Positions 1,658 through 31,862 of a stretch of DNA of 32,775 bases are shown here, piece after piece; the stretch's first letter is position 1; the number at the start of each line of letters is the position of its first letter. The stretch is from positions 1 to 32,775 of IMG/VR virus record IMGVR_UViG_3300025525_000005. One strand, 5' to 3'. This stretch comes from a virus. Both the position numbers and the translations under genes were made by a program. The notes beneath the pieces were generated by a model. It was not told where the DNA came from, did no database searches, and was given only the letters and a program-made list of their open reading frames with translations.

Positions 1658-2506
1658 TTACGTCGTTTTGCGAGCCTTGGCAGCCGGTTTGGCTGCCGCT
1701 TTTGCCGCGCGGCTCTTGGCCTGCCGCGTCGCGCAGCGCGCCACGATGGCCGCGAACGCGCGGAGCTGGCGGGCGACCTCCGCGCACTCGTCGGGGCTCA
1801 GGCGCTGGTAGCGCGGCGTCGAGCCGCTCACCAGTTCCGAGATCCGCGCGAGGGCGTGGTCGAACGAATGCTTCGCGGCCTCGTACTGCAGCCGCTCGGT
1901 GTCCGCCGGGCTGGCCTGCCGCCGCCTGCGCCACGCGCCGAACTGCCCGACCGCCTCGTCGTCCCAGTCGCTCGTCCGCACGCCGTTGAGGTCCGGGCGC
2001 TCCTCGCCGACGAACGCCGCCGCCTCCACCACGTCCGGCGCGAACCCGCCCCGCCGCGTCTGGGGCCGCGCGCCGATCTCGTGCAGGATCTCGCACATGC
2101 TGCGCTCGCCGATGTACTCGTCCATCATCCGGTCGGCCTCGCTCCCGCCGGAGAACACCGCCATCATCGCCGTCACGCCCTGCCGGTCGCGGTAGTCCGG
2201 CAGCGGAAGCCTGTCCGCCGTCCGGCGCTGGAAATCCGACGCCAGCTTGCGGTAATAATGCTGGCGCGTCTGGCCGATCTCCGGGAACCGGTCGGCGGCC
2301 CACTGCGTGAACGCGCCCGACAGCAGCGGCTTGGCGAAATTCAGCGCGAGCCCCTGGCAGATCGCGGCCTTCACGGCGTCGCCCTCGCTGCGGCGCTCCA
2401 CGGCGTGGAGCTGCCGGATGAACTGCTCGATCTTCGCGAGCTGGATCTCTTTGCTCGCGACCTCCGCGTTTTTCGACGCGACCTCAACAGATACCTGTTT
2501 CTTCAT
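1658..2506 (-). CDS. Basic-tailed early protein, DUF3102-like region
   Basis: 282 aa of unknown function. The ATG at 2506 is preceded by a purine-rich AGGAAAAGAGAGCA; an in-frame extension to 2581 lacks such a site and overlaps the upstream gene. Residues of about 50-100 (ICQGLALNFAKPLLSGAF.QW then YYRKLASDF) resemble the core of DUF3102-type phage proteins, in which a 'K..L.HG.F..W' segment precedes a helical repeat. The middle is acidic and helical. The last 20 residues are Lys/Ala-rich (KSRAAKAAAKPAAKARK), like a histone-H1-type tail, suggesting DNA contact. Directly upstream of the transposase in the same operon, so a role in transposition or replication is possible but only inferred from position. 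Confidence 0.6.
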   Translation of the reverse strand: MKKQVSVEVASKNAEVASKEIQLAKIEQFIRQLHAVERRSEGDAVKAAICQGLALNFAKPLLSGAFTQWAADRFPEIGQTRQHYYRKLASDFQRRTADRLPLPDYRDRQGVTAMMAVFSGGSEADRMMDEYIGERSMCEILHEIGARPQTRRGGFAPDVVEAAAFVGEERPDLNGVRTSDWDDEAVGQFGAWRRRRQASPADTERLQYEAAKHSFDHALARISELVSGSTPRYQRLSPDECAEVARQLRAFAAIVARCATRQAKSRAAKAAAKPAAKARKTT

Positions 2507-2534
2507 TGCTCTCTTTTCCTTTTTTTTCGCGCGC

Positions 2535-2795
2535 TCAGAACGTGCCCGACGCGCGGCTCCTGATGTGTTCCACCGCGACATCGCGATGGATGAAATACTG
2601 TGCCTTTGTGGGGGTGCCGTAATTCAGCGCGGAGATCTCCCCGCACTCGATCCGCTTGAGGATCGGCGACGACGACCGGAAACCGATCGCCGCCGCGATG
2701 TCCATCGGCGTCACCAGCGCGCCTTTCGGCAGCCGCGCGACAATCGCCTCGACCGTCGCGTTATGCTCGCCCGTCGTGTTCGCCGCACCTGTCAT
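2535..2795 (-). CDS. Small HTH-type DNA-binding protein
   Basis: 86 aa with a good ribosome site (AGAAGGAGGCGCGAA before ATG). Residues 15-60 (TVEAIVARLPKGALVTPMDIAAAIGF.SSSPILKRIECGEI) read as a compact helix-turn-helix with the recognition helix after VTPMDIAAAIGF, followed by KAQYFIHRDVAVEHI. It resembles small phage excisionase or regulator-like HTH proteins but I do not recognise a specific family. The start codon overlaps the stop of the upstream membrane protein by four bases (ATGA), so the two are translationally coupled. Confidence 0.6.
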   Translation of the reverse strand: MTGAANTTGEHNATVEAIVARLPKGALVTPMDIAAAIGFRSSSPILKRIECGEISALNYGTPTKAQYFIHRDVAVEHIRSRASGTF

Positions 2796-3007
2796 TTCGC
2801 GCCTCCTTCTCCCGCCTCCGCCTCCGCCTCACTGTGGCCGCGCCGCTCCGTCGCGGTCTCATCGTCCTCCTCGCCGTCCTCCGCCAAACACCACGCGAAG
2901 AACGCCTGAAACGCCAGCACCGCCAGCAGCGTCAAACCGAACAGAAACAACCCGATCCCGCAGCCGATCCGCGCCGCCTGCTCAACTGTCAATCCGTCCC
3001 AGCACAT
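2792..3007 (-). CDS. Small single-pass membrane protein
   Basis: 71 aa. A single strong membrane segment (IGCGIGLFLFGLTLLAVLAF, about residues 14-33) is followed by a very acidic and then mixed-charge tail rich in Glu, Asp and Ala. The ATG is preceded by an excellent AAGGAGG after an A tract. It sits in the middle of the early operon, overlapping the next gene by four bases. Function unknown; small early membrane proteins in phages can act in superinfection exclusion or membrane targeting of replication, but nothing here proves that. Confidence 0.6.
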   Translation of the reverse strand: MCWDGLTVEQAARIGCGIGLFLFGLTLLAVLAFQAFFAWCLAEDGEEDDETATERRGHSEAEAEAGEGGAK

Positions 3008-3031
3008 ACCCGCCTCCTTTTTTTTTAACCC

Positions 3032-3475
3032 TTACTTCCCGCCCGAAAAAAGCGCCAGCGGCTGCGGCGTCCGCACCTTCGCCGCGATGCAGCCCGGCGT
3101 CTGGCAGATGTAATACCGCTCCACCGTCCGCCCCGACTCATCCTTGCGACCGCCCGACCTCTTCCCCGGCAGATCGCAGAACCGGCAGCGCGGCACGCGG
3201 CAGTCGCCGCACTCCTCGGCGTTCTCCTTCGCCACGTTTTTCAGCGCGGCCTTCTCCCACGGCGCGGGCGGCTCCTCTTCACCTTCAAACGGGTTCGGAA
3301 CGGGCGTCCGCTCCACGCCGTCCAGCGCCCGGCGCAGCTCATCCCGCAGCGACACCGCCACAGGCCCGAGCCCGCCCGCCGCCTCCAGCGCTGCCCGCAC
3401 CTTCGCGCGCTCCTCCCGCCGCAACACGTACACGCCGTCCAGCAGCTCCACCCGCATCATCAGCTCACCCGCCAT
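3032..3475 (-). CDS. Zinc-ribbon early protein
   Basis: 147 aa. The start at 3475 (MAGELMMRVEL) has GAAGGAGG at good spacing and lies 11 bases inside the end of the upstream gene; the much longer open frame upstream is an Arg/Cys-rich shadow of that gene. The N-terminal half is helical (RREERAKVRAALEAAGG, LRDELRRALDGVE). The C-terminal half has CGDCRVPRCRFC (C-x2-C-x4-C-x2-C) and later CQTPGC, a probable metal-binding module. Family not recognised; a nucleic-acid-binding role is the natural guess. Confidence 0.6.
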   Translation of the reverse strand: MAGELMMRVELLDGVYVLRREERAKVRAALEAAGGLGPVAVSLRDELRRALDGVERTPVPNPFEGEEEPPAPWEKAALKNVAKENAEECGDCRVPRCRFCDLPGKRSGGRKDESGRTVERYYICQTPGCIAAKVRTPQPLALFSGGK

Positions 3476-3875
3476 GGCCCGCCTCCTTCGCCTTCCGCGC
3501 CTCCTCGCAATAGTGCGGCAGGTGGATGCCGATCCGCAGCAGCATCGCCATCGCCTGCGCCAGCTCCTTACGCGCCGCCTCCAGATCGCCAGCCTGCTCC
3601 GCCTCGCACATTTCCAAAAACTCCTCGCAAAACACCGAATACCCCGACGCGTGCGCACCGCCTTCCGCGTCGTTGCACTCCCGCGCCGCAGCGAGCTGCT
3701 CGCCGAGGGCGCACGGCATCTTTTCCGGCAACAGCAGCCTGTCCGGAAATTTCGGAAACTTCCCGCACGCCCGCTTAAGCTCCTGATACGCGGCATGCTC
3801 CAAAACCGCCGGCCCTCCGCTGCCGACCACAAGCTGCCGCTCCCACTCCTTCATCGTATCCAATGTCAACGCCAT
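3465..3875 (-). CDS. Possible MazG-like nucleotide pyrophosphohydrolase
   Basis: 136 aa. The layout YQELKRACGKFPKFPD near residues 30-45, then SVFCEEFLEMCEAEQ and EAARKELAQAMAMLLRI near residues 80-115, resembles the short phage MazG-like proteins in which an EE..E helix and an EL.Q/D helix bind the metal for NTP hydrolysis. If so it would hydrolyse (d)NTPs in the cytoplasm. The second acidic position is Gln rather than Asp, and a long loop separates the halves, so the assignment is tentative. The ATG at 3875 follows a GGAAAGGCGAGG sequence; the stop overlaps the zinc-ribbon gene. Confidence 0.45.
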   Translation of the reverse strand: MALTLDTMKEWERQLVVGSGGPAVLEHAAYQELKRACGKFPKFPDRLLLPEKMPCALGEQLAAARECNDAEGGAHASGYSVFCEEFLEMCEAEQAGDLEAARKELAQAMAMLLRIGIHLPHYCEEARKAKEAGHGG

Positions 3876-3929
3876 CTCGCACCTCGCCTTTCCACGCTCT
3901 TCGTTATTCGCTCTTCGCTGTTCACTCCC
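3876..3929. repeat. Degenerate 7-8-bp-period repeat between early genes
   Basis: The short gap before the MazG-like gene contains near-repeats of 'gctcttcg', 'ttattcgctcttcgctgttcactccc' style (about 3893-3929). On the minus strand this reads as GAGTGAACAGCGAAGAGCG and continues in the same style. It belongs in style with the better copies listed at 4275, 5564, 6868, 7094 and 9551, but is more diverged. Confidence 0.4.
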
Positions 3930-4250
3930 TCAATACTCCGCCCTTGCCGCCGCGTCCGCGAACGGCCACGCCGCCGCCGCCGAGAAATACCCGACGCCCC
4001 GCGCCGAGCGGTTAACGATCCGCCGGACCGCCCGCGTGTGGAGGTCGAACTCCTCCACACGCCAAACCCACCAGCCGCCCACGCGCTCCGCCACCGCGCG
4101 GCGGGCCGTGCCCGCCCGGCGGCAGCCGCTCCAATACACCCGCCGCCAGCCCGCGCCCTCGCGGTGCCACCCGCCCAGCGCCCGCCACGCCGTCGCCAGC
4201 TCGCCCGGCGCGACCCTCGGCCTCCGGTACTCGGTCAGAGCGCAGCTCAT
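3930..4250 (-). CDS. Hypothetical early protein, Trp/Arg-rich
   Basis: 106 aa of unknown function. Its ATG overlaps the stop of the upstream gene as ATGA (4247-4250), which decides the start. Composition is rich in Arg, Ala and Trp (ERVGGWWVWRVEEFDLHTR near the middle), consistent with a small beta-rich domain in which aromatic residues alternate. No family recognised. An alternative frame at 4012-4263 is open but has no coupled start and a less natural composition. Confidence 0.45.
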   Translation of the reverse strand: MSCALTEYRRPRVAPGELATAWRALGGWHREGAGWRRVYWSGCRRAGTARRAVAERVGGWWVWRVEEFDLHTRAVRRIVNRSARGVGYFSAAAAWPFADAAARAEY

Positions 4251-4525
4251 GCGGCACCGCCATTCGGCTGCGCCGAGTGAGGAGTTAGCAGTGAGGAGTG
4301 AGGAGTGGTGGACACGCCCTCACAAAAACTATCAAAAACCGCCCTTTCGGCAATATCGCCGTGCCGCCGCCGCACCGCATCGGCAATACTCTCCCCGGCG
4401 CGCGGCTTAACAAGCCGCTCCAGCTTATCCAAATCGATCATCTCGATACCGACATCATACAGATTGCCGTCCAGCAGGCGGCACGGCGGCACCCCTAAAA
4501 GAGAGCAGACATCGATCACGCCCAT
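4247..4525 (-). CDS. Hypothetical early protein with in-frame repeat at C-terminus
   Basis: 92 aa. The ATG at 4525 lies 10 bases inside the end of the serine recombinase gene. Residues 1-70 form a plausible small helical domain (VIDVCSLLGVPPCRLLDGN, then IDLDKLERLV and SIADAVRRRHGDIAERAV). The last 20 residues (TTPHSSLLTPHSAQPNGG) are encoded by the degenerate heptad repeat at 4275-4311, so the natural C-terminus appears to have been replaced or extended by repeat sequence. Function unknown. Confidence 0.5.
   Translation of the reverse strand: MGVIDVCSLLGVPPCRLLDGNLYDVGIEMIDLDKLERLVKPRAGESIADAVRRRHGDIAERAVFDSFCEGVSTTPHSSLLTPHSAQPNGGAA
4275..4311. repeat. Heptad-period short repeat, copy in coding sequence
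   Basis: Units of 'gtgagga' and 'gttagca' type in tandem (for example gtgaggagtgaggagtgg). Encodes TPHSSLLTPHS in frame on the minus strand. Same family as the copies at 5564, 6868, 7094 and 9551. Confidence 0.7.
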
Positions 4526-5124
4526 TTAACACCCCGCTCTCTGATGTGTTTCGCGAACGTCAGCCGGTGGACTCGCAACTTCCGCGCGGCCGCCGACTGC
4601 GACATTCCGCGCCCGAACAGCCGGTCGATCTCATCTTGTTTGCACGTCAGCTTGGTCACCGCGCTCCTGCTGCCCTTCGGCCGGCCTAACGTCACGCCGC
4701 GCTCCACGGCTCGCCGCAGCCCCTCCTTGGTGCGCTGACGCAACAAATCCCTCTCGATCTCAGCCGCCAAGCCCATCACCGTGACCAGCACCTTGCTTTG
4801 GATGGTATCCTCGAGGACGTACCGATCCTTGACTGTGTATATTTTTATCCCGCGCTCCGAGCAGTCTCTGATGACCTGCAGGATCATGTCCAGCTTGCGA
4901 CCGATACGGCTGATCTCCGCCGCCACGATCGCGTCGCCCGCCACCGCCTTTTTAAGTAGCTTACCGAGCAGCCGCTTCGACGGGTCCTTCGCCCCGCTCA
5001 CCCCCGAATCCGACACCCACTCGAGATCTGTCCACCCGCGCGCGGCGCAGAACTCCTCGATTCCGATGCGCTGCGAATCGACATCTTGATTATCTGTTGA
5101 AACTCTCAAGTAACAATAGATCAT
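4516..5124 (-). CDS. Serine recombinase, resolvase/invertase type
   Basis: 202 aa, the usual size for Hin/Gin/resolvase enzymes, which cut and religate DNA through a covalent serine link. YLRVSTDNQ places the catalytic Ser at residue 9 with Arg7; D64 and the SRIGR segment (residues 72-76) supply the other active-site residues; AEIERDLLRQRTKEGL (121-136) is the long dimer helix. LGRPKGS leads into a C-terminal HTH (MSQSAAARKLRVHRLTFAKHI). The ATG at 5124 overlaps the preceding stop as ATGA and has GGAGG upstream; a longer frame to 5232 is a shadow. Its place in an early operon, far from the fibre genes, is unlike Mu gin. Target sites were not identified. Confidence 0.92.
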   Translation of the reverse strand: MIYCYLRVSTDNQDVDSQRIGIEEFCAARGWTDLEWVSDSGVSGAKDPSKRLLGKLLKKAVAGDAIVAAEISRIGRKLDMILQVIRDCSERGIKIYTVKDRYVLEDTIQSKVLVTVMGLAAEIERDLLRQRTKEGLRRAVERGVTLGRPKGSRSAVTKLTCKQDEIDRLFGRGMSQSAAARKLRVHRLTFAKHIRERGVKWA

Positions 5125-5360
5125 GCCATCCTCCAATCTTTCCACGCCCTGAAACACACCCACTTGCACCCGCCTAGCTTGCGCCGACACAACGTGCAAC
5201 TGCTCTCGATGCTGTTGATCAGCCGCGCGCACGTCGCCTCACGGTCTTCCGCGGCTATCGAGCAGCCAGGCCTGTGCGAGCACTGCACGCAATGCCGAAA
5301 GTCGCCAGCCTTGTCGCGCCGCGACCGAACTTTGATAACTTTTCGCGCGTCAGATCTCAT
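5121..5360 (-). CDS. Cys-rich small protein, probable zinc finger
   Basis: 79 aa from ATG 5360 (a GTG at 5363 would add one residue). Contains HCVQCSHRPGC, then C..., and later SSCTLCRRKLGGCKWVCF: at least eight cysteines in C-x2-C type pairs, indicating two metal-binding knuckles. The N-terminus is basic (RKVIKVRSRRDK). Placed three bases after one Cys-rich gene and overlapping the recombinase start. Function unknown; DNA or RNA binding is likely from composition only. Confidence 0.6.
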   Translation of the reverse strand: MRSDARKVIKVRSRRDKAGDFRHCVQCSHRPGCSIAAEDREATCARLINSIESSCTLCRRKLGGCKWVCFRAWKDWRMA

Positions 5361-5363
5361 CAC

Positions 5364-5597
5364 TCAGCCCCCCGCCATCGGCGCTCCCCTTGGAGCCGCC
5401 CACACGATGTCCCCGCCACCGCCCCGCAGATGCCCGGCGCAGGGCGGCAGCGCGTTGCAAAGCTCCAGATCCCGCCCGCCCGACAGCCTCGCCGCCGCGC
5501 AGCCGTCGCAGCCGCGCGTCGACGCCTTCGCCCGGTACGTCCGCCCGGCGACTTCCGCCGTGCGGAGGGAGGAGTTATGAGTTAACGACCTATCCAT
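5364..5597 (-). CDS. Cys-module early protein, paralogue of the 6711-7136 product
   Basis: 77 aa. The ATG lies in AATGGATAG at the end of the RdgC-like gene (8-base overlap). After a repeat-encoded stretch (LTHNSSLRTA) comes AGRTYRAKAS, then CDGCAAAR, LELCNALPPCAGHLR and GDIVW. The pattern C-x2-C ... C-x5-C ... R..G..(I/L)VW is shared with the gene at 6711-7136 and is, as I recall, seen in small phage early proteins that bind metal. TYRAKA is also shared with the 64-aa protein at 7129-7323. Function unknown. Confidence 0.6.
   Translation of the reverse strand: MDRSLTHNSSLRTAEVAGRTYRAKASTRGCDGCAAARLSGGRDLELCNALPPCAGHLRGGGGDIVWAAPRGAPMAGG
5564..5586. repeat. Heptad-period short repeat, copy in coding sequence
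   Basis: ggagggaggagttatgagtt and the next bases, in the 5' end of the Cys-module gene; encodes LTHNSSLRTA on the minus strand. A short member of the family described at 6868 and 9551. Confidence 0.6.
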
Positions 5598-19454: not shown

Positions 19455-19871
19455 ATGACGTTCACCCTCACAGATTCGTCCGGCGGCTCCCAGCTCGCGC
19501 TCGTGCACGGGCCGGGCGCCGCGACCGACAGTTACGCGCAGGGGCCGCTCGGCGAGCAGGCCTACGACGCGCAGCAGAAGGTGGACGAGTGGCCGCTGAC
19601 CCGCAGCGACTGGGCGCTCGTGCTGCCGCGCAAGAACCACGCGGCGACGCGCGGCTTCGCGGCGCTCCGCGCGTTCGCCACGGCGGAGGCGGCGGAGGCG
19701 TGGGCCGCGCAGCACACGCTCGCCGTGCAGGGGCTCACGCGGCTGGTCTACGCCAACGGCGCGCTGACGATCAAACTCCACGGCGCGATCGCCGCCTGCC
19801 GCCCGGTGGTGCGCAACGTGGCCGTGGAGATCCATTACGCATTCCGCTACGGGCGGGTGGAGGTGGTGTGA
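19455..19871 (+). CDS. Tail-associated protein of unknown function
   Basis: 138 aa; AAAGGACAGCGC before ATG. Begins MTFTLTDSSGGSQLALVHG and contains RGFAALRAFATAEAAEAWAAQH, then strands up to EIHYAFRYGRVEVV. Follows the tail tube gene but does not look like a tail assembly chaperone, and no slippery frameshift site was seen at its end. Stop and next start overlap as TGATG. Confidence 0.5.
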   Translation: MTFTLTDSSGGSQLALVHGPGAATDSYAQGPLGEQAYDAQQKVDEWPLTRSDWALVLPRKNHAATRGFAALRAFATAEAAEAWAAQHTLAVQGLTRLVYANGALTIKLHGAIAACRPVVRNVAVEIHYAFRYGRVEVV

Positions 19872-21319
19872 TGATGCGGCACGGAAGAGCGTTGCGGATC
19901 ATGGTGTGCGTGTGCGCGGCGGCAGGGCTGCGCGCGCAGGTGCCGGTGCGGTGGATCGCCGAGACCTCGCGACCGGTGCCGCAGAGCGTGGGCGTGTGGC
20001 AGGGCGAGACGCTCGCGTTCGAGCCGACCTTCACGGCCTACGGCGAGCCGCTCGCGTTCGGCGCGGACACGGAAGTCCGGCTCTACTGGCAGACCAACGG
20101 GATGGCGTCGGCGTGGTGGAGCGTGCCCGGCGAGACCTCCGCCGTGCCCGGGCGCGTCCGCGCGGTGTGGGGGCCGACGAACGACGCGGGGGCCGCGGCC
20201 TACAGCTTCTTCCTCGGCGTCGGCGGCGGCGGAGGCCGCATGTACCGCGCGTCCGGCACGATGCGAGTCAACGCCTCCCCCGGCTTCAACCCCGCCTCGC
20301 TGCCGCCGCCCTCCGCGTACCCGACGCTGGCGGCTGAACTCGCCCCGCTCGTCGCCCCGCTGCTCCCCGGCGGGCTGGCCACTACGGGCGACGTGGCGGC
20401 GGTCAGCAACGCGCTTGCAGGCGCGTTGCAAGCCGAGACGCAGTCCCGCGCATCGGCGGACGGAACCAACGCCGCCGCGATTTCAGAGCACGTCTCGCGC
20501 ACCGACAACCCGCACGCCGTCACGCCCGCGCAGATCGGCGCGGCCACGCCGTCCGCCGTCACCGGGATCGTGTCTGCCGCCCTCGCCGCCCTGCCGCCTC
20601 CCGCTGACCCCACGCGGCTGGTGTCGGCGGACTCGAATAGCTGGGTGACGGTGGACGGCGGCACCGCCACGCTCTGGCGGGTGGAAAACGTTCTGGTGAG
20701 TCTGTGCGACATCGAGTTTCTCGGCGCACAGATGGACCCTTTCAGACCCCCGTTTTTCCCCGTACCGCTGGTAGCCCAGTTCCCGTTTTACGCGACAGCA
20801 TTTGAGGTCGAGGTCGATCCTGACGACTGGATGCGCGGCTACTACCTGCCGGACGGGCGTGCGGAAATCACATCCAGTTTCGGGGAGGAATACGACATTG
20901 CGGCGACATGGAGGTCTGCGTCGGTGGAGTTTCCTCAGACGCTTTATCCGGTTGACGGGACAACCGCCGAGGGCCTTGCCGTGATTACGCCCACCGGGCA
21001 GTTTGTGAGCGTTTTCGCCACCAACGCCACCCGCTACGCGCTCGCCGATTTCGCCACGACGCAGCAGGTGGGGGCCGTCGCCGCGCAGATCCCCGACGTG
21101 TCCGGGCTTGCCTCGACGCAGCAGGTGGCCGAGGTCGCGGGTCTCATCCCCGACGTGTCCGGGCTGCTCTCCATGCAGACGGCGGACGAGCGCTATCCGC
21201 TACGCAACAACATGCCGAGCAACAGCGTCACCGGCTGGCTCGTCTACGATCAGGGATCTAACGACTGGCTGCGCGTGGTGGTCTCCAACCGCAGCTTCAC
21301 GGTGTGGGAGGTGCAGTGA
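19871..21319 (+). CDS. Fibre/baseplate-like protein with Sec signal peptide
   Basis: 482 aa. Residues 1-23 (Met, His/Arg-rich, then IMVCVCAAAGLRA) form a signal peptide with likely cleavage after LRA. Residues about 24-140 have a BppU-like plan: WQGETLAFEPTFTAYGEPL, EVRLYWQTNG, a G.VRAVW strand, AAAYSFFLGV, and YRASGTMRV..SPG. Later come HVSRTDNPHAVTPAQIGA, the classical phage tail-fibre motif, two 19-residue repeats (TTQQVGAVAAQIPDVSGL / STQQVAEVAGLIPDVSGL) and ADERYPL. So the body is a fibre or receptor-binding protein but the N-terminus directs export. The part encoded by 20640-21000 is less GC-rich. Confidence 0.7.
   Translation: MMRHGRALRIMVCVCAAAGLRAQVPVRWIAETSRPVPQSVGVWQGETLAFEPTFTAYGEPLAFGADTEVRLYWQTNGMASAWWSVPGETSAVPGRVRAVWGPTNDAGAAAYSFFLGVGGGGGRMYRASGTMRVNASPGFNPASLPPPSAYPTLAAELAPLVAPLLPGGLATTGDVAAVSNALAGALQAETQSRASADGTNAAAISEHVSRTDNPHAVTPAQIGAATPSAVTGIVSAALAALPPPADPTRLVSADSNSWVTVDGGTATLWRVENVLVSLCDIEFLGAQMDPFRPPFFPVPLVAQFPFYATAFEVEVDPDDWMRGYYLPDGRAEITSSFGEEYDIAATWRSASVEFPQTLYPVDGTTAEGLAVITPTGQFVSVFATNATRYALADFATTQQVGAVAAQIPDVSGLASTQQVAEVAGLIPDVSGLLSMQTADERYPLRNNMPSNSVTGWLVYDQGSNDWLRVVVSNRSFTVWEVQ
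21059..21172 (+). repeat. Two 57-bp tandem repeats in the fibre-like gene
   Basis: Encodes (T/S)TQQV..VA..IPDVSGL twice. DNA blocks 'atccccgacgtgtccgggct' and 'acgcagcaggtgg' are exact in both copies. Typical of fibre shafts that vary by unit number. Confidence 0.7.
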
Positions 21320-22053
21320 TGATTAAGCGCGTGTCCTTTTTTGTGTTGCTGTCGATTGCGGCCTCGGCGCAGAGCGTGCACGGCCCGCTGCTTGAGCTGC
21401 TGACGATCCGCCCGGACGGCTCGATGTGGCCGACCGGCGTCGCGGCCACCGTCTCCGGGCTGGCCAACGCGGCGGCCACCGCTCAGGCGGCCATCGCGGA
21501 GGCGCAGGCCGTGCAGTCCGCGCAGGCCATGATCGACGCACGGATCAGCGAGATCGAGCAGTTGGAGGCCGCCCGCAACGCCACCGGCTACATCCGCCTG
21601 TTCGTGGAGTCCTTCACGCCCGGCATCGAGGCGGACACCAACAACGTGGCCTCCATCATCCGGCTGTCTCTGGCCAGCAATACCGTCGAGCACGCGTACT
21701 GGGATCTGTGGACGTTTTTCACGTCCGACCCCGGCGTCTGGCCGTACGTCCGCACCTCCGAAAGCGTCGGGCGGTCGAACGAGTGGGATCTCGCCGATTC
21801 CGCCGGTGTCTCGCTCGGCGAGGTGCTCGTCGGCTCGACGCTCTACGAGGCCTATCGCAACACCGTCCGCATGCCCGTCGACAGCACGCAGGCCTTCTTC
21901 CGCGTCTACGCCGACATCGAGGGCGTCGGCACCAATCAGGTCACGCTTCCCGTCAACACAGGCGTGGCCGTCAACGGCGTGCCGGGGATCACCGTCACCA
22001 TCACAGAGGGCACCAACACCATGGGCTGGAAAGGGGGCGTACGTGTACAGTAG
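21319..22053 (+). CDS. Secreted coiled-coil/beta protein A
   Basis: 244 aa. TGATG overlap with the fibre-like gene. MIKRVSFFVLLSIAASAQ is a signal peptide with ASA-Q cleavage. Then an Ala-rich coiled coil (LANAAATAQAAIAEAQAVQSAQ, and ARISEIEQLEAARN), and a beta-rich C-terminal domain with YIRLFVESFTPG, YWDLWTFFTSDPGVWP and VAVNGVPGITVTI. It looks like a distant paralogue of the next product, with which it shares domain order. Not recognised. Confidence 0.6.
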   Translation: MIKRVSFFVLLSIAASAQSVHGPLLELLTIRPDGSMWPTGVAATVSGLANAAATAQAAIAEAQAVQSAQAMIDARISEIEQLEAARNATGYIRLFVESFTPGIEADTNNVASIIRLSLASNTVEHAYWDLWTFFTSDPGVWPYVRTSESVGRSNEWDLADSAGVSLGEVLVGSTLYEAYRNTVRMPVDSTQAFFRVYADIEGVGTNQVTLPVNTGVAVNGVPGITVTITEGTNTMGWKGGVRVQ

Positions 22054-22945
22054 CGAGGACATCATCAGGCTGCTTGTGCTCATCGGCGTCGGGCAGGCGT
22101 TCGTGCGCCTCCCGTCCGTCGCGCGGGCGGCGGGCTGGTGGGCCCGGAGCTTCGGGCGGCGCACCTTTTTCGGCCTGCTCGTCGGATGGTGCGCGTGGGC
22201 AGGGGCCAAGTCGATCACCCAGCGCACGCTTGTCGGGCAGTTCGTCAGCGTGCTGCGCTCGGGCGTCATCATCGATGAGTCCGGCGTCTTGGCCAAGGCC
22301 ACCGAGCAGGCCGTCGTCGAGGCGTTCGTGGGCCTTTCGCGCGAGGTGGTCGCCGCCACCTCCAACGAGGTGGTGCAGGCCGAGGCCGAGTTCGCGCGTG
22401 TCTCCGCCGTCGTCACCAACTCCAGCAGGCGCCTCATCTACATCGCCAGCTACCTGCCGCGCAGCGGCCCGGGACACATCAACCACAACATCGCGGCGAC
22501 GTGCGAAAAGACCTCGCAGACGCACGGCGGCAGCAACATCGTCGCGTGGGTCTGGTTCAGCCAAGAGCCAGCCTTCGCGCCCGGCATGGTGGCAGAGTTC
22601 GACGTGGGCGGCGGGCCTGTCCGCGCGGTCTGCGTCACCAACGACTTCCCCGCCACGGTCGCAGTCAACGGCGTGCCGTGCGTGCGCTACGAGTTCTGCG
22701 TGCCGCCCGGCGGCGTGGGCGTCCACTACAAGCCCGCCTACGAGGTCGGTTTCGGGCTGCCAGACAGCCCGCTGATCGTCCCCGCAGGCGGCATCAGCGT
22801 CAAGGTCGGCGAGGTCGAGTACCTGCCCTTCAGCGGCACCGACAGCTATTTCGGCGGGCGCGTGCAAGTCGTCTACAAAGGTGGGCTCGCCCAACAGTGC
22901 ATCATCGACGGCTCAGCCGTCACCAACGGAGTCTACGAGCTATGA
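22043..22945 (+). CDS. Membrane-anchored coiled-coil/beta protein B
   Basis: 300 aa from GTG 22043, chosen because AAAGGGGGCGTAC precedes it and a long upstream extension would run through the previous gene. Two hydrophobic stretches (IIRLLVLIGVGQAFV and TFFGLLVGWCAWAGA) flank an Arg-rich turn. Then a helical part (ATEQAVVEAFVGLSREVVAATSN, EVVQAEAEFARV) and a Cys-containing beta domain with RLIYIASYLPRSG, IVAWVWFSQEP, VAVNGVPCVRYEF and FGGRVQVVYKGG. Probably displays its C-terminal domain outside the inner membrane. Function unknown. Confidence 0.6.
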   Translation: MYSSEDIIRLLVLIGVGQAFVRLPSVARAAGWWARSFGRRTFFGLLVGWCAWAGAKSITQRTLVGQFVSVLRSGVIIDESGVLAKATEQAVVEAFVGLSREVVAATSNEVVQAEAEFARVSAVVTNSSRRLIYIASYLPRSGPGHINHNIAATCEKTSQTHGGSNIVAWVWFSQEPAFAPGMVAEFDVGGGPVRAVCVTNDFPATVAVNGVPCVRYEFCVPPGGVGVHYKPAYEVGFGLPDSPLIVPAGGISVKVGEVEYLPFSGTDSYFGGRVQVVYKGGLAQQCIIDGSAVTNGVYEL

Positions 22946-23634
22946 TGACCAAAGTCCTCACCCTCTGTTTCATCGCCGCCGCCGCAGCGGCCCAGCCCGT
23001 CGCCGTCTCCCGCATCCGCATGTCCGAGACCGAGGAGGCCGTCTTTTACAAAGACAAAATGTCAGACGGCACCTACCGCGACTCGCAGATCGTCAAGCCC
23101 AAGCCGATCTACTACCCCGAGCGCATCGAGCTGGTCGGCACCAACGACGCGCCGCGCTTTTACGAGCTGGTCTATGTCGGCTACTACGCGGGCGGCACCG
23201 TGCGCACCAATTACACGCCCGTCCTCAAATCAAAACGCATGCTTGCCGAGGAGCTGCTTGTCCCGCCGCCCCCGGTCCCCGACGTGCCGCCGCCTCACGA
23301 GCGAGCGCTTGCCAAGGACGACGCGCTCGGCCACGCCAAGGCCCGCATCCTCGCGCCCGCCGCCGTCGAGACCAACGCCGTGCGCCGCATGGGGCCTCCC
23401 CTGCCGCGCGTCAAGACCGCCATGCTGGCCAACGGCAAGCTGGTCGAGACGATGACAGACGGCACAGTCCGAATCTCCGCGCCGCGCCGCGCGTTCACGG
23501 CGCGGACAGACGCACGGCCTCACAACGGAAACACAGGCGCGCCCCTCGGCGCGGCGGCTGCGGCGGGTGCCGCAGCCCTCGCCGCAGCCGCAGGTTACGC
23601 CGCCGGAAAAAAAGGGAACAAAGACAATGGATAA
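22942..23634 (+). CDS. Secreted Pro-rich protein with C-terminal anchor-like tail
   Basis: 230 aa, ATGATG start overlapping the previous stop. MMTKVLTLCFIAAAAAAQ is a signal peptide. The mature part has a small beta domain (EEAVFYKDKMSDGTYRD, FYELVYVGYYAGG) then a Pro linker (VPPPPVPDVPPP), a basic stretch and a C-terminus with GAAAAAGAAALAAAAGYAAG followed by KKGNK: hydrophobic segment plus positive tail, like a C-terminal membrane anchor. Function unknown. Confidence 0.55.
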   Translation: MMTKVLTLCFIAAAAAAQPVAVSRIRMSETEEAVFYKDKMSDGTYRDSQIVKPKPIYYPERIELVGTNDAPRFYELVYVGYYAGGTVRTNYTPVLKSKRMLAEELLVPPPPVPDVPPPHERALAKDDALGHAKARILAPAAVETNAVRRMGPPLPRVKTAMLANGKLVETMTDGTVRISAPRRAFTARTDARPHNGNTGAPLGAAAAAGAAALAAAAGYAAGKKGNKDNG

Positions 23635-24187
23635 CATCAAACCCAGAGACTCAAAAGAGATCGCTGTCACCGGAGCCGGGACGCGTATCCTCGCGGCCAT
23701 CGGCATTGTCGGCGCGATGGTCCCCACGCTGCTCGCCGCAGTCGGCGGGCTCGACTGGATCACCGCCAACCTGCCGCTGCTGCTCACCGGCCTCGGCTCG
23801 CTGGTCACGGGCGGCGTGGCCTCCTACGTCGCGGTGCGCCGCATGCGCGTCGACCGCGTGGCCTGCTTCCTGATTGCGCTCGTCATCGGTCTCTTTCTCT
23901 GCGGCTGCCTCACGCGCACCCGCTGCCAGCAGATCAACGCCCGCGACTGCGTGATCAACGTCAACCTCAACGATCCGGAGTCCATGTCGGAAAACGCCTA
24001 TCCGCGCTCTCTTAACATCCTCTCGCAGGATCAGATGGTGGAGGGCGGGGCCGACACGATTAGCTCCGGCAACCGCACGCCGGTCACCACGCTGCCGCTC
24101 GGCGACACCGCGCTCGATGCGGCATCGGCCATCGCGACGGGCGGCGCGTCGAAAGTCGCGGACGCGCTGGACAACGCGGCGAAATGA
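23627..24187 (+). CDS. Holin-like membrane protein fused to a lipoprotein-like tail
   Basis: 186 aa; the ATG lies in AATGGATAA at the end of the upstream gene. Residues 20-60 contain two membrane segments (ILAAIGIVGAMVPTLLAAVG, LPLLLTGLGSLVTGGVASYVAV) with the small-holin look, followed by RRMRVDR and a third segment ending in a lipobox-like LFLCGC, then a polar tail (TRTRCQQINARDC ... NILSQDQMVEGG). The Met at MRVDRVACFLIALV could serve as an internal start giving a separate Rz1-like lipoprotein. Lysis role is inferred; no endolysin was found nearby. Confidence 0.55.
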   Translation: MDNIKPRDSKEIAVTGAGTRILAAIGIVGAMVPTLLAAVGGLDWITANLPLLLTGLGSLVTGGVASYVAVRRMRVDRVACFLIALVIGLFLCGCLTRTRCQQINARDCVINVNLNDPESMSENAYPRSLNILSQDQMVEGGADTISSGNRTPVTTLPLGDTALDAASAIATGGASKVADALDNAAK

Positions 24188-24224
24188 TTTCCGGCGGCAT
24201 GGTGCCTCCGGGGAAAGGAACAAC

Positions 24225-24701
24225 ATGAAGAGACGTATGATGATGATGGGGGTTCTCGCGGCGGCGGGCCTGCTGGCCTTGCCTTCGCGGGCGGGGCCGG
24301 CCGCGCTGGATTTCGAGGTGTCGCTGACGGCGGGGCAGACGGCGGTGACGCAGTCCGTGCCGATGGTTTCGGCGGCGTTTGAGATCGACCGCATCGTGCT
24401 CCACAACGACAGCGCCGTGACGGCGGCGGTGGCGGTGGCCGCGCTGGACCTCGGCGTGGCGCTGCCGCTCGACACGTTCGCGTTGGCGGCGGGCGGCGGC
24501 GAAAGCCGCGCGACGAGGCTGGCGGAGATCACCACGCTCCAGCAGCATGTGGTGACCGGCGACGTGGCGTTCGTGCGCACGAACGTCTCGACCAACCAGA
24601 TCCGCAGGCCGCTCGTCCGCGACCTGCAGGTGACGGTGAGCAAGCCGACCAACGCGGTGCCGATGACGGTTCGCGGGCGGGTCTTCGGCTTCGGCAATTG
24701 A
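24225..24701 (+). CDS. Secreted beta-sandwich-like protein
   Basis: 158 aa; GGGAAAGGAACAAC before ATG. MKRRMMMMGVLAAAGLLAL..RA is a signal peptide. The mature part (FEVSLTAGQTAVTQSVPM, FEIDRIVLHNDSAVTAAVAVAAL, TTLQQHVVTGDVAFVRTN, RDLQVTVSKPTNAVPMTV, VFGFG) is a run of alternating strands like a decoration or pilin-like domain, without Cys. Last gene before the strong terminator. Function unknown. Confidence 0.6.
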   Translation: MKRRMMMMGVLAAAGLLALPSRAGPAALDFEVSLTAGQTAVTQSVPMVSAAFEIDRIVLHNDSAVTAAVAVAALDLGVALPLDTFALAAGGGESRATRLAEITTLQQHVVTGDVAFVRTNVSTNQIRRPLVRDLQVTVSKPTNAVPMTVRGRVFGFGN

Positions 24702-24705
24702 TCCG

Positions 24706-24747
24706 GGCGCCCCCGCCGCGCAAGGCGGGGGCGCCGCACTTTTTTTT
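24706..24747 (+). terminator. Strong rho-independent terminator inside the late region
   Basis: Perfect 12-bp stem GGCGCCCCCGCC (24706-24717) / GGCGGGGGCGCC (24724-24735), 6-nt loop, then GCAC and eight T (24740-24747). It separates the exported-protein block from the MuF-like gene. Confidence 0.85.
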
Positions 24748-24762: not shown

Positions 24763-26031
24763 ATGGCAGACCTGATCACAACGGCGGCGAGGTTTCTGGC
24801 GGGCAAGCGGGCGGTCGCGACATCGCTCAGCTCGCGCGAGATCGAAGAGCACGTGCCCCGCGCGCTGCGTGACAGCTCGGTGTTTTCCGCGCGCACCATC
24901 TACGCGGAGCATGTGAGCGAGACGAAGCGCGAGATCACGGCGCTGCTCGACGGAAAAAAAAGCCCCGCCGAGATCCGCGCGGCGATGAAGCTGCGGCTGG
25001 CGCGTCTGGGCTACGCGCCCGATCCGGCGCAGCGCGGCGGGCTCCAAGACCTCTCAAGCGACCGCCGGACGAACCTGATCATCGAGATGCAGGAGCAGGG
25101 CGCGCGCGGCTATGCCGTGTGGCGCGCCCAGCAGGATGAGGCGCTGCTGACCGTGTGGCCCGCGCAGGAGCTTTTCCGCGCGGAGGCGCGGATGAACCCG
25201 CGCCGCTGGCGCGAGCGCTGGGAGACGGCCCGCGGGGAGCTGGGCGAGACGACCACCGCGACGGCGGCGCTTTCCGACGCGGGGCCGTTCGTCGCGCTCA
25301 AGAACGACCGCGTCTGGACGCATCCGGCGGTCAACCGTTTCGGGCATCCGTGGACGCCGTTCGACTACCGCAGCGGCATGCGCCTGCGGCAGGTGCGGGC
25401 GGGCGCGGCCCGCGCGGCGGGCGCGCTCAAGGGCCGCAACTTCCCGAAACCCGCGCGCGACCCGATGGACGGGCGCGTCACATCGGCCTCGGCGGCGGGC
25501 ATGGACATGGAGGTGGTGCGGGCGTGGGCGGCGGCGTTCGGCGACCGCGCGCGGGTCTACGCGGGGCGGGGCGGCGTCCCGCGCGTCGCGGTGGCTCCGG
25601 ACGCGGCGGCGGCAAAACAGGTCGTGGAGGCGGCGCTTGAGGGCGCGGAGGCGACCGCCGCGTTCGGGTTCCCGCCGGAGGCCGCTGTCCGCGCGATCGG
25701 CGAGGCGCTCGGCAGGGAGCTGCGTCCGGAGACGCCGATGCAGGTGTCCGCCTCGGACGTGCGGCACATCCTCAAGGCGCACGGCGGCGAGACGCGCGCG
25801 GGGCAGCGGCCCGTGACGGCGGAGGACATCGGGCGCGTGCCTGAGACGGTGCGCGGCGCGGGCCGCTGGCAGCCCGCCGCACCGGCGCGTTCGGGCGGAG
25901 GCGAAACGGTGATGTTCGTGGCGGAGGGCGGCGAGCGCGTGGTCTTCCAGCTCACCGACGGGAAGAACGATCCGCGCCTGAAACTCAAAACGATGTGGGC
26001 CGAAAAAAAGAAAGACCGCCCCGCCGGTTGA
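24763..26031 (+). CDS. MuF-like minor head protein with C-terminal nuclease-like domain
   Basis: 422 aa. The N-terminal 240 residues fit the variant MuF proteins of Mu-like phages: AARFLAGKRAVATSLSSREI, FSARTIYAEHVSETKREI, a WPAQELFRAEARMNPRRWRERW segment, then FVALKNDRVWTHPAVNRFG..WTPFDYRSGM. Residues about 335-422 (VSASDVRHILKAHGG, QRPVTAEDIGRVPETV, ETVMFVAEGGERVVFQL, LKLKTMWAEKKK) match the outline of the barnase/EndoU/ColicinE5/RelE-like domains attached to MuF proteins, with His at DVRHILKAHG. It would ride in the virion. In Mu the F gene follows the portal; here it is displaced by about 10 kb. Confidence 0.7.
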   Translation: MADLITTAARFLAGKRAVATSLSSREIEEHVPRALRDSSVFSARTIYAEHVSETKREITALLDGKKSPAEIRAAMKLRLARLGYAPDPAQRGGLQDLSSDRRTNLIIEMQEQGARGYAVWRAQQDEALLTVWPAQELFRAEARMNPRRWRERWETARGELGETTTATAALSDAGPFVALKNDRVWTHPAVNRFGHPWTPFDYRSGMRLRQVRAGAARAAGALKGRNFPKPARDPMDGRVTSASAAGMDMEVVRAWAAAFGDRARVYAGRGGVPRVAVAPDAAAAKQVVEAALEGAEATAAFGFPPEAAVRAIGEALGRELRPETPMQVSASDVRHILKAHGGETRAGQRPVTAEDIGRVPETVRGAGRWQPAAPARSGGGETVMFVAEGGERVVFQLTDGKNDPRLKLKTMWAEKKKDRPAG

Positions 26032-30830: not shown

Positions 30831-31862
30831 ATGGCGTGGGCGACGATTACGACCGATACGAGCTGGCAGTCGCTGGCGGTCGCGCAGCAACTGGCCGTCG
30901 CGTTTAACCGGCGGGCCACGGTGGTCGGCGCGGACAGCATCGAGACGCGTCTAGGCGTGGCCGAGATCGGCGAGGGTGTGCGGGTGTATGACTTCGTGCG
31001 GGCGATGCAGGTCGGCATCGAGTCAATCGCCACATCATTCAGCCTCGCATCGGCCACTCTGGCAGGGCAGGCGTCTCTCCCCGCTAATTTCGCTTCGGTC
31101 TCGGCAATGATGACCGCCGCCGGTCTCACCCAATCAGGTTACTGGCGCAGGGCCGCAGAGGGCGGGGCTGCTCCCGATCCGTGGACGCCATACGCGGGAT
31201 GGAGCTACGGGAAGATGGAGACGGGGGACCTTGCAGGCCCGTGGCTGTTCAAAGACTTGCAGGTGGCTTTGACGGCCATGACGCGAGTGGTTGTTCCTGT
31301 TGCCTCTGCCACCTTTACTTCCTATGCGGAAAAGGTTGAAGGGGCGGAATACACGGAGTATCCCGACTTGCCGAGCGCAGAGCTGACAGGTTCCGTATCC
31401 ATGCCGCCGCCCACCTCCACATCATCGTGGGAAGTGTTTGTTTCGGTAACAAAAGAGCGGTGGTTCAACAGCTCACTGTCGATGCGATTCTGGCAGATCG
31501 GGGCTTTCGTGCGCATCGCCCGGCTACGGTCTTTATACACGCCGCCTTTTGGGGTGGCGAACACGACAAACTTTGTGGTGCTGATTCCCAGCGCCGCGCC
31601 CAGCGCGTTTTCCCCCGTCACGGGATGGTCTGACGCATCTATCGGGAAGACCGTCCTCCTGCCAACAACAGATCGAGGCGACGGTTATGCCAATGCGTGG
31701 GTGCCACGGAACCCATCCCTTATCACCCCGACGTGGTCTGCTCTATCCTCAATCCTTCCGTGGTCATCCGTCCCTTACTCATCGCCGCAGACAGCCCCCA
31801 CTGTCATCCGGATGGATGTGTCCCAAGTAAATTGCGTCCATGATTTTTCATTTTCAGAATAG
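30831..31862 (+). CDS. Distal tail protein, unrecognised
   Basis: 343 aa; AAGGTAAGGAGTCGGC before ATG. Begins MAWATITTDTSWQSLAVAQQLAVAFNRRA; contains GVRVYDFVRAMQVGIESIATSF, SGYWRRAAEG and long Ser/Thr/Pro-rich segments with aromatic residues (ERWFNSSLSMRFWQIG). Its latter half is less GC-rich than the hub gene, as often for host-contact genes. Likely structural, at the tail tip; no family recognised. Confidence 0.55.
   Translation: MAWATITTDTSWQSLAVAQQLAVAFNRRATVVGADSIETRLGVAEIGEGVRVYDFVRAMQVGIESIATSFSLASATLAGQASLPANFASVSAMMTAAGLTQSGYWRRAAEGGAAPDPWTPYAGWSYGKMETGDLAGPWLFKDLQVALTAMTRVVVPVASATFTSYAEKVEGAEYTEYPDLPSAELTGSVSMPPPTSTSSWEVFVSVTKERWFNSSLSMRFWQIGAFVRIARLRSLYTPPFGVANTTNFVVLIPSAAPSAFSPVTGWSDASIGKTVLLPTTDRGDGYANAWVPRNPSLITPTWSALSSILPWSSVPYSSPQTAPTVIRMDVSQVNCVHDFSFSE

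Follow-up and report, generated by a model that had tools for sequence, protein, structure and literature searches.

Among described phage systems, those closest to the locus presented here are the baseplate proteins of the BppU type, as represented by BppU (ORF48) of TP901-1 and the baseplate fibre of Staphylococcus aureus phage 80alpha, in which a characteristic N-terminal domain is combined with a helical stalk and a variable C-terminal part. Tailed phages are generally assumed to receive their fibres in the cytoplasm, and a secretion signal on an apparent tail fibre is odd, since particles of this kind are regarded as being put together within the cell. Neither Mu nor the Bacteroides Hankyphage, both Mu-like transposable phages, is known to possess an exported block comparable to the one described below. 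Phage-encoded exported proteins located beside a fibre or receptor-binding gene are likewise represented by the superinfection-exclusion lipoproteins Llp of T5 and Cor of T1 and phi80; T5 Llp, a periplasmic lipoprotein encoded beside the receptor-binding gene pb5, blocks FhuA (PMC9586334). A further group of relevance comprises the phage lysis cassettes, which consist of a holin, an endolysin and a spanin lipoprotein.

The window analysed here is the whole linear IMG/VR record IMGVR_UViG_3300025525_000005 (32,775 bases) and not a part of a host genome. Matches to PHROG families identified a Mu-type terminase (TerL), portal, protease, scaffold and MCP, and a tape-measure gene is present as well; the order of terminase, portal, protease, MCP and MuF-position gene is that of Mu and Hankyphage. 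The left-end gene (3-1640, - strand), which has no Pfam match, is presumably a MuA-type transposase, judged by its position and its homologues in relatives. The early region also harbors a serine recombinase of the DNA-invertase family (4516-5124, - strand; phrog_125, 1e-44). Relatives were reached via the terminase and then by alignments. Where named, the sources of these relatives are MAGs labelled Kiritimatiellae, Kiritimatiellaeota or Verrucomicrobia, in addition to one 'uncultured bacterium'. The Kiritimatiellae are little-studied gut bacteria, and a search of the open-licence PMC literature yielded no dedicated study of their phages. One relative (G004) has two ORFs at its right end that perhaps represent cargo or defence genes, one of them ATPase-like and the other 877 aa long (L011 reverse strand, rc 1792-5498). 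The genes of the block and its surroundings are as follows, with predicted signal peptide cleavage marked by a slash:

19455..19871, + strand: gene preceding the block, possibly for tail assembly; lacks a signal peptide
19871..21319, + strand: P1, 482 aa; predicted signal peptide 1-22 (LRA/QVPV), BppU-type N-domain from 23 to about 140, helix/coiled coil, variable C-terminal part
21319..22053, + strand: P2, 244 aa; predicted signal peptide (ASA/QSV), helical stalk, beta domain
22043..22945, + strand: P3, 300 aa, GTG start; two hydrophobic segments at the N-terminus, then a helical stalk and a beta domain
22942..23634, + strand: P4, 230 aa; predicted signal peptide (AAA/QPV), Pro-rich part with a DALG motif, Ala-rich hydrophobic C-terminus with a K/R tail
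23627..24187, + strand: P5, 186 aa; two membrane segments forming a holin-like part, joined to a third that carries the lipobox LFLCGC (Cys94)
24225..24701, + strand: P6, small protein of 158 aa, predicted to be exported (SRA/GPA)
24706..24735, + strand: intrinsic terminator hairpin, 12 G-C pairs followed by a T run; folded region -33.6 kcal/mol, z -3.2
24763..26031, + strand: downstream neighbour, named MuF in the first-pass annotation, kept in relatives

As the first-pass annotation had described, P1 to P6 reside inside a virion operon between the last gene of the tail-tube region and MuF, an assignment that is based on conserved position, since the protein has no family match beyond a weak one to PBECR3. 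The close spacing was also borne out: overlaps of 1-11 nt link the first five genes, and gaps of 37 nt and 61 nt precede P6 and MuF, respectively. The annotation had counted four signal peptides after that of the first gene, which is one too many, as there are four in total with P1 included (P1, P2, P4 and P6). The two remaining genes do encode membrane segments, two hydrophobic ones in P3 and three in P5. The hairpin behind P6 is indeed the strongest terminator of the window. Its proposed role as the boundary of a unit was rejected: a hairpin at the equivalent site was found in only one of seven relatives tested (L088, 7 bp), and since most of them lack it, the terminator does not define the block.

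Signal peptides were called by a crude home-made rule based on n-region charge, a hydrophobic core and a small-x-small cleavage site. By this rule, 31 of 39 P1 rows, 12/12 P2 and 5/5 P4 homologues were positive, compared to 4 of 158 core phage proteins (MCP 0/11, MuF 0/26, gp36 0/21, portal 0/9); gene starts were chosen by script, and the comparison is limited by differences in P1 length, the MAG origin of the sequences and fragment ends. The 39 P1 rows represent 38 distinct loci, as L074 duplicates L080, and a P1 signal peptide is present in 32 of the 38. The n-region is positive in all 32 of these and the hydrophobic core is found in 31, and 32/32 have a small-x-small site, located 3-9 residues ahead of the Trp with which the conserved P1 domain opens; this test is permissive (background 63%), and we regard it as supporting evidence only. 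The conserved domain starts directly after the predicted cleavage site, and the signal is retained in composition, not in sequence. As homologous rows are not independent, a comparison at the level of families is to be preferred to row counts: the families of the block possess signals or anchors, a feature that is consistent in none of about 18 core families. The signals of the block exceed chance. Sec export is thus predicted for P1, P2 and P4 across diverged homologues and for P6 from its own sequence, and export of the block products, as the first-pass annotation had proposed, appears well supported at the sequence level. The view that these N-termini are not functional signals and that the proteins are ordinary cytoplasmic virion components would agree with the normal lack of export of tailed-phage virion proteins and with the reported absence of signal peptides from phage DGR target proteins (PMC6199706). 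Against it, however, stand several gene families with textbook signals or anchors in one slot, next to core families without them, and a signal composition that is kept without sequence conservation, so that we consider it extremely unlikely.

The nature of P1 became apparent from structural modeling. An AlphaFold2 model of the mature P1 N-domain, built on a 32-sequence alignment, reached a pLDDT of 88.5, and a Foldseek search against the PDB returned baseplate chains of TP901-1, NF5 and 80alpha as the top matches (TP901-1 4v96, E 6e-7, and 3uh8, 3.4e-6; 80alpha 6v8i, 2.8e-6), with moderate TM-scores of about 0.5-0.6 by query length and identities of 5-16%. Viral BppU/baseplate proteins also ranked first in BFVD (E about 5e-9). 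A phage connector protein (Bas63) was likewise among the top matches, and immunoglobulin-like receptors appeared at weaker E-values; a sequence-profile search of the PDB with P1, now superseded by Foldseek, had yielded only weak Ig-like matches (best E 0.009). At the sequence level, the Pfam family BppU_N was matched by one P1 relative (4e-5), the value for L085 (1.4e-4) lying just under the cut-off and P1 of the window giving no match. The window P1 weakly matches the tail fibre family phrog_8147 (1.2e-4) and carries the tail-fibre motif DNPHAVT at residues 212-218 within its helix/coiled-coil part. Established tail-fibre modules are found on signal-bearing P1 proteins of relatives, namely Phage_tail_C in L024 (2e-11), PTR in L084 (2e-33) and Phage_fiber_2 in L026 (4e-8), and Collagen occurs in four P1 members. 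As in virion fibres, the N-domain is conserved and the C-terminal part is variable, conservation dropping after about residue 200. Judged by modeled fold and modules, P1 is a tail fibre with a predicted BppU-type N-domain, in line with the 'fibre-like' proteins envisaged earlier, and the architecture of an exported fibre is well supported. P1 resembles BppU-type proteins in the predicted fold of the N-domain, the helical stalk with repeat modules and the variable C-terminal part, but differs from them by the Sec signal, by its position beside lysis-type genes and before MuF, and by the co-encoded exported partners P2-P4.

Exported proteins with variable C-terminal parts might also be surface adhesins that benefit the lysogen. 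Such lysogenic conversion is very unlikely, however, as nearly every locus read has the block within a cluster of late phage genes; in addition, no promoter-like site was found on the + strand of the block region, which is a weak argument as the promoters of the host may look different.

The gene order was searched in other Mu-like phages, as the first-pass annotation had suggested, and the block recurs in relatives. P1-P2-P3-P4 occupy the same slot in L010 (G004, TerL identity 73%) and L013 (G003, 65%), where the hydrophobic N-termini persist at protein identities of 27-50%; in L010, P1 and P2 are separated by one additional small gene. The same order is found in L021, L032, L085 and L088, while P1 is accompanied by other exported genes in L031, L086, L090 and L095 and follows tail genes together with exported genes in other tail contexts (L023, L028, L079, L080). 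Of 388 genomes sampled from the phylum, 21 matched the P1 domain. Queried as single proteins, P3 and P5 gave no matches, nor did tblastn of P3 and three P1 N-domains against 50,697 records of cultured phages. We conclude that diverged Mu-like phages of Kiritimatiellae/Verrucomicrobiota share the block as a conserved late module, which is not a product of chance.

Five loci (L065 and L091-L094) encode a P1 without signal peptide. They form one group (support 100/99) beside the signal-bearing L084 and L087, so that a single change suffices; in the unrooted tree, this change was likely a loss. Homologues lacking hydrophobic N-termini, which the first-pass annotation had regarded as speaking against its view, were encountered for P1 only and in this clade only. 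In L091-L094, P1 is located after the gene in the gp36 position and upstream of a lipoprotein gene and MuF, and the signal-less P1 of L091 carries DNPHAVT and collagen repeats. The genes next to it in L092 and L093 are still exported by prediction. As one clade lacks the signal peptide, export is not essential for every P1. A 'DAPQG'/'AAPQG' leader was observed near the start of the signal-less P1 of L092-L094 and of unrelated genes of the same phages (L091:13326-13646, L093:13446-13763). Two fusions were also noted: in L022 (1732-2574), a tail-tube gene continues in frame into the P1 N-domain, the junction lying where a signal peptide would end, which may reflect a deletion or misassembly, and in L089 (9569-11791), a gp36-like gene runs in frame into P1, so that the signal-like hydrophobic stretch is internal.

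Comparison of P2 and P3 by hhalign yielded a profile match with 97.3% probability (E 2.4e-11), identifying the two as paralogues, one predicted to be free after signal peptide cleavage and the other to be membrane-anchored. In L086, P3 has a cleavable signal peptide in place of the TM anchor. The C-terminal hydrophobic stretch of P4 is not universal among homologues. Small exported genes comparable to P6, although only weakly similar, are located at the end of the block in L031 and beside the capsid gene in L085, L086, L088, L090, L096 and L097. More generally, an exported protein of 121-175 aa is encoded between the gene in the capsid position and gp36 in many relatives, and between gp36 and gp37 in L010, representing another signal peptide within the head operon (L085:6556-6936, L086:12316-12729, L088:13045-13440, L090:9330-9716, L096:4460-4852, L097:6004-6393, L030:5127-5492, L032:4852-5280, L082:10674-11201).

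P5 has TM segments and a lipobox, as would suit a holin or spanin, and together with its neighbours is reminiscent of a lysis cassette; unlike in described cassettes, the holin-like and lipoprotein parts are joined in one frame and no endolysin was recognised in the block of the window. The architecture is repeated in L088 (292 aa, LLSSGC), and L013 has separate ORFs for a holin-like protein and a lipoprotein. An internal ATG at 23843 precedes the lipobox segment, and the Met is retained in L088 (RRMRLDK), so that two products, including the lipoprotein alone, are possible. The block has the lysis-type neighbourhood suspected previously, with lipoproteins, two-TM ORFs and, in L010, a lysozyme-like ORF recognised by its motif and without a Pfam match; nearby genes encode DUF1353 in L085 and a GDSL hydrolase in L086. 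Given these neighbours and the overlap of P4 with P5, P1-P4 might aid the breakage of the envelope together with holin, lipoprotein and endolysin. This idea is quite improbable, however, as no enzymatic domain was found in P1-P6 and P1 is, by predicted fold and modules, a tail fibre.

On the basis of the signals, which point to export, and of the lysis-type neighbours, which suggest the moment when the compartments meet, we propose that the fibre is held in the periplasm and joins the virion at lysis. P1 would be a tail fibre of the BppU type that is synthesised as a Sec precursor. Two exported stalk-plus-beta proteins would accompany it, P2 in free form and P3 anchored in the inner membrane, along with P4 as another exported partner. 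P5 would serve lysis as a holin-like protein and lipoprotein in one, and P6 would be a further, small protein of the exported set. Late in infection, P1-P4 would cross the inner membrane, and the fibre would fold and be held in the periplasm on a platform of P2, P3 and P4. Once the holin opened the inner membrane, virions would arrive and the fibre would dock via its BppU domain onto the tail tip. We infer actual export, periplasmic holding and docking from the features described above; the role of P2-P4 as a platform is a guess, as the AlphaFold2 model of P2 is poor (pLDDT 44) and the fold predictions cover the P1 N-domain and P2. A precedent for a fibre joining a tailed phage in the periplasm was not found in the open-licence PMC literature. 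P1 is favored as a virion fibre because of its docking domain, its single copy and its signal-less sister clade. Such a build-up of fibre in the periplasm is the best explanation we can offer, albeit a tentative one. The first-pass annotation, whose observation as a whole is partly confirmed and whose interpretation is partly supported, had not considered that what is exported may be the fibre of the virion.

The main rival is receptor masking or superinfection exclusion, in which the receptor on an infected cell would be taken up or jammed by exported P1-P4, keeping progeny and competitors from adsorbing, the receptor-binding protein of the virion being a non-exported product of a gene near the tail tip. 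T5 Llp provides a precedent (PMC9586334), P2 and further block proteins stay exported where P1 is not, and non-exported genes that could encode the true receptor-binding proteins are located 3' of gene 28780 in the window (30831-31862), in L099, L100 and L105, and as a small ORF in G004. Gene 28780 is presumed from its position to encode the tail tip; a sequence-profile search of the PDB with it gave no match. On the other hand, P1-P4 are larger than Llp and Cor and are not lipoproteins: they lack an N-terminal lipobox, the only lipobox being that of P5 behind two TM segments. The most conserved part of P1 is a virion-docking domain for which a decoy has no obvious need, and the location within the late operon points to expression late in infection and not in the lysogen. 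The possibility that P1 is a decoy copied from another fibre was rejected: no other protein resembling P1-P4 was present in the 20 phages checked. The three fibre motifs searched occurred in no non-P1 ORF of the loci read. Receptor masking ranks second and is rather unlikely. A dual use would reconcile docking domain and signal peptide, if export were inefficient, so that some P1 stayed in the cytoplasm for use in virions and the remainder masked receptors, and loss of the signal in one clade would then leave the virion role alone. However, the P1 signal peptides look strong by n-region and core and direct support is lacking, which renders this combination improbable.

Returning to the periplasmic fibre, it might be speculated that tailed phages of Kiritimatiellae finish their virions outside the cytoplasm, the fibre and perhaps the capsid-adjacent exported protein being secreted and added only at lysis, a reading which we regard as possible but doubtful. 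A conserved Sec signal on a baseplate-type fibre would mean either that the last steps of virion assembly can take place beyond the cytoplasm or that phage adhesins are deployed in the host envelope. Either meaning would change the annotation of receptor-binding proteins, because a fibre that is secreted is readily mistaken for a surface protein of the host, and either would open up the biology of the phages of Kiritimatiellae.
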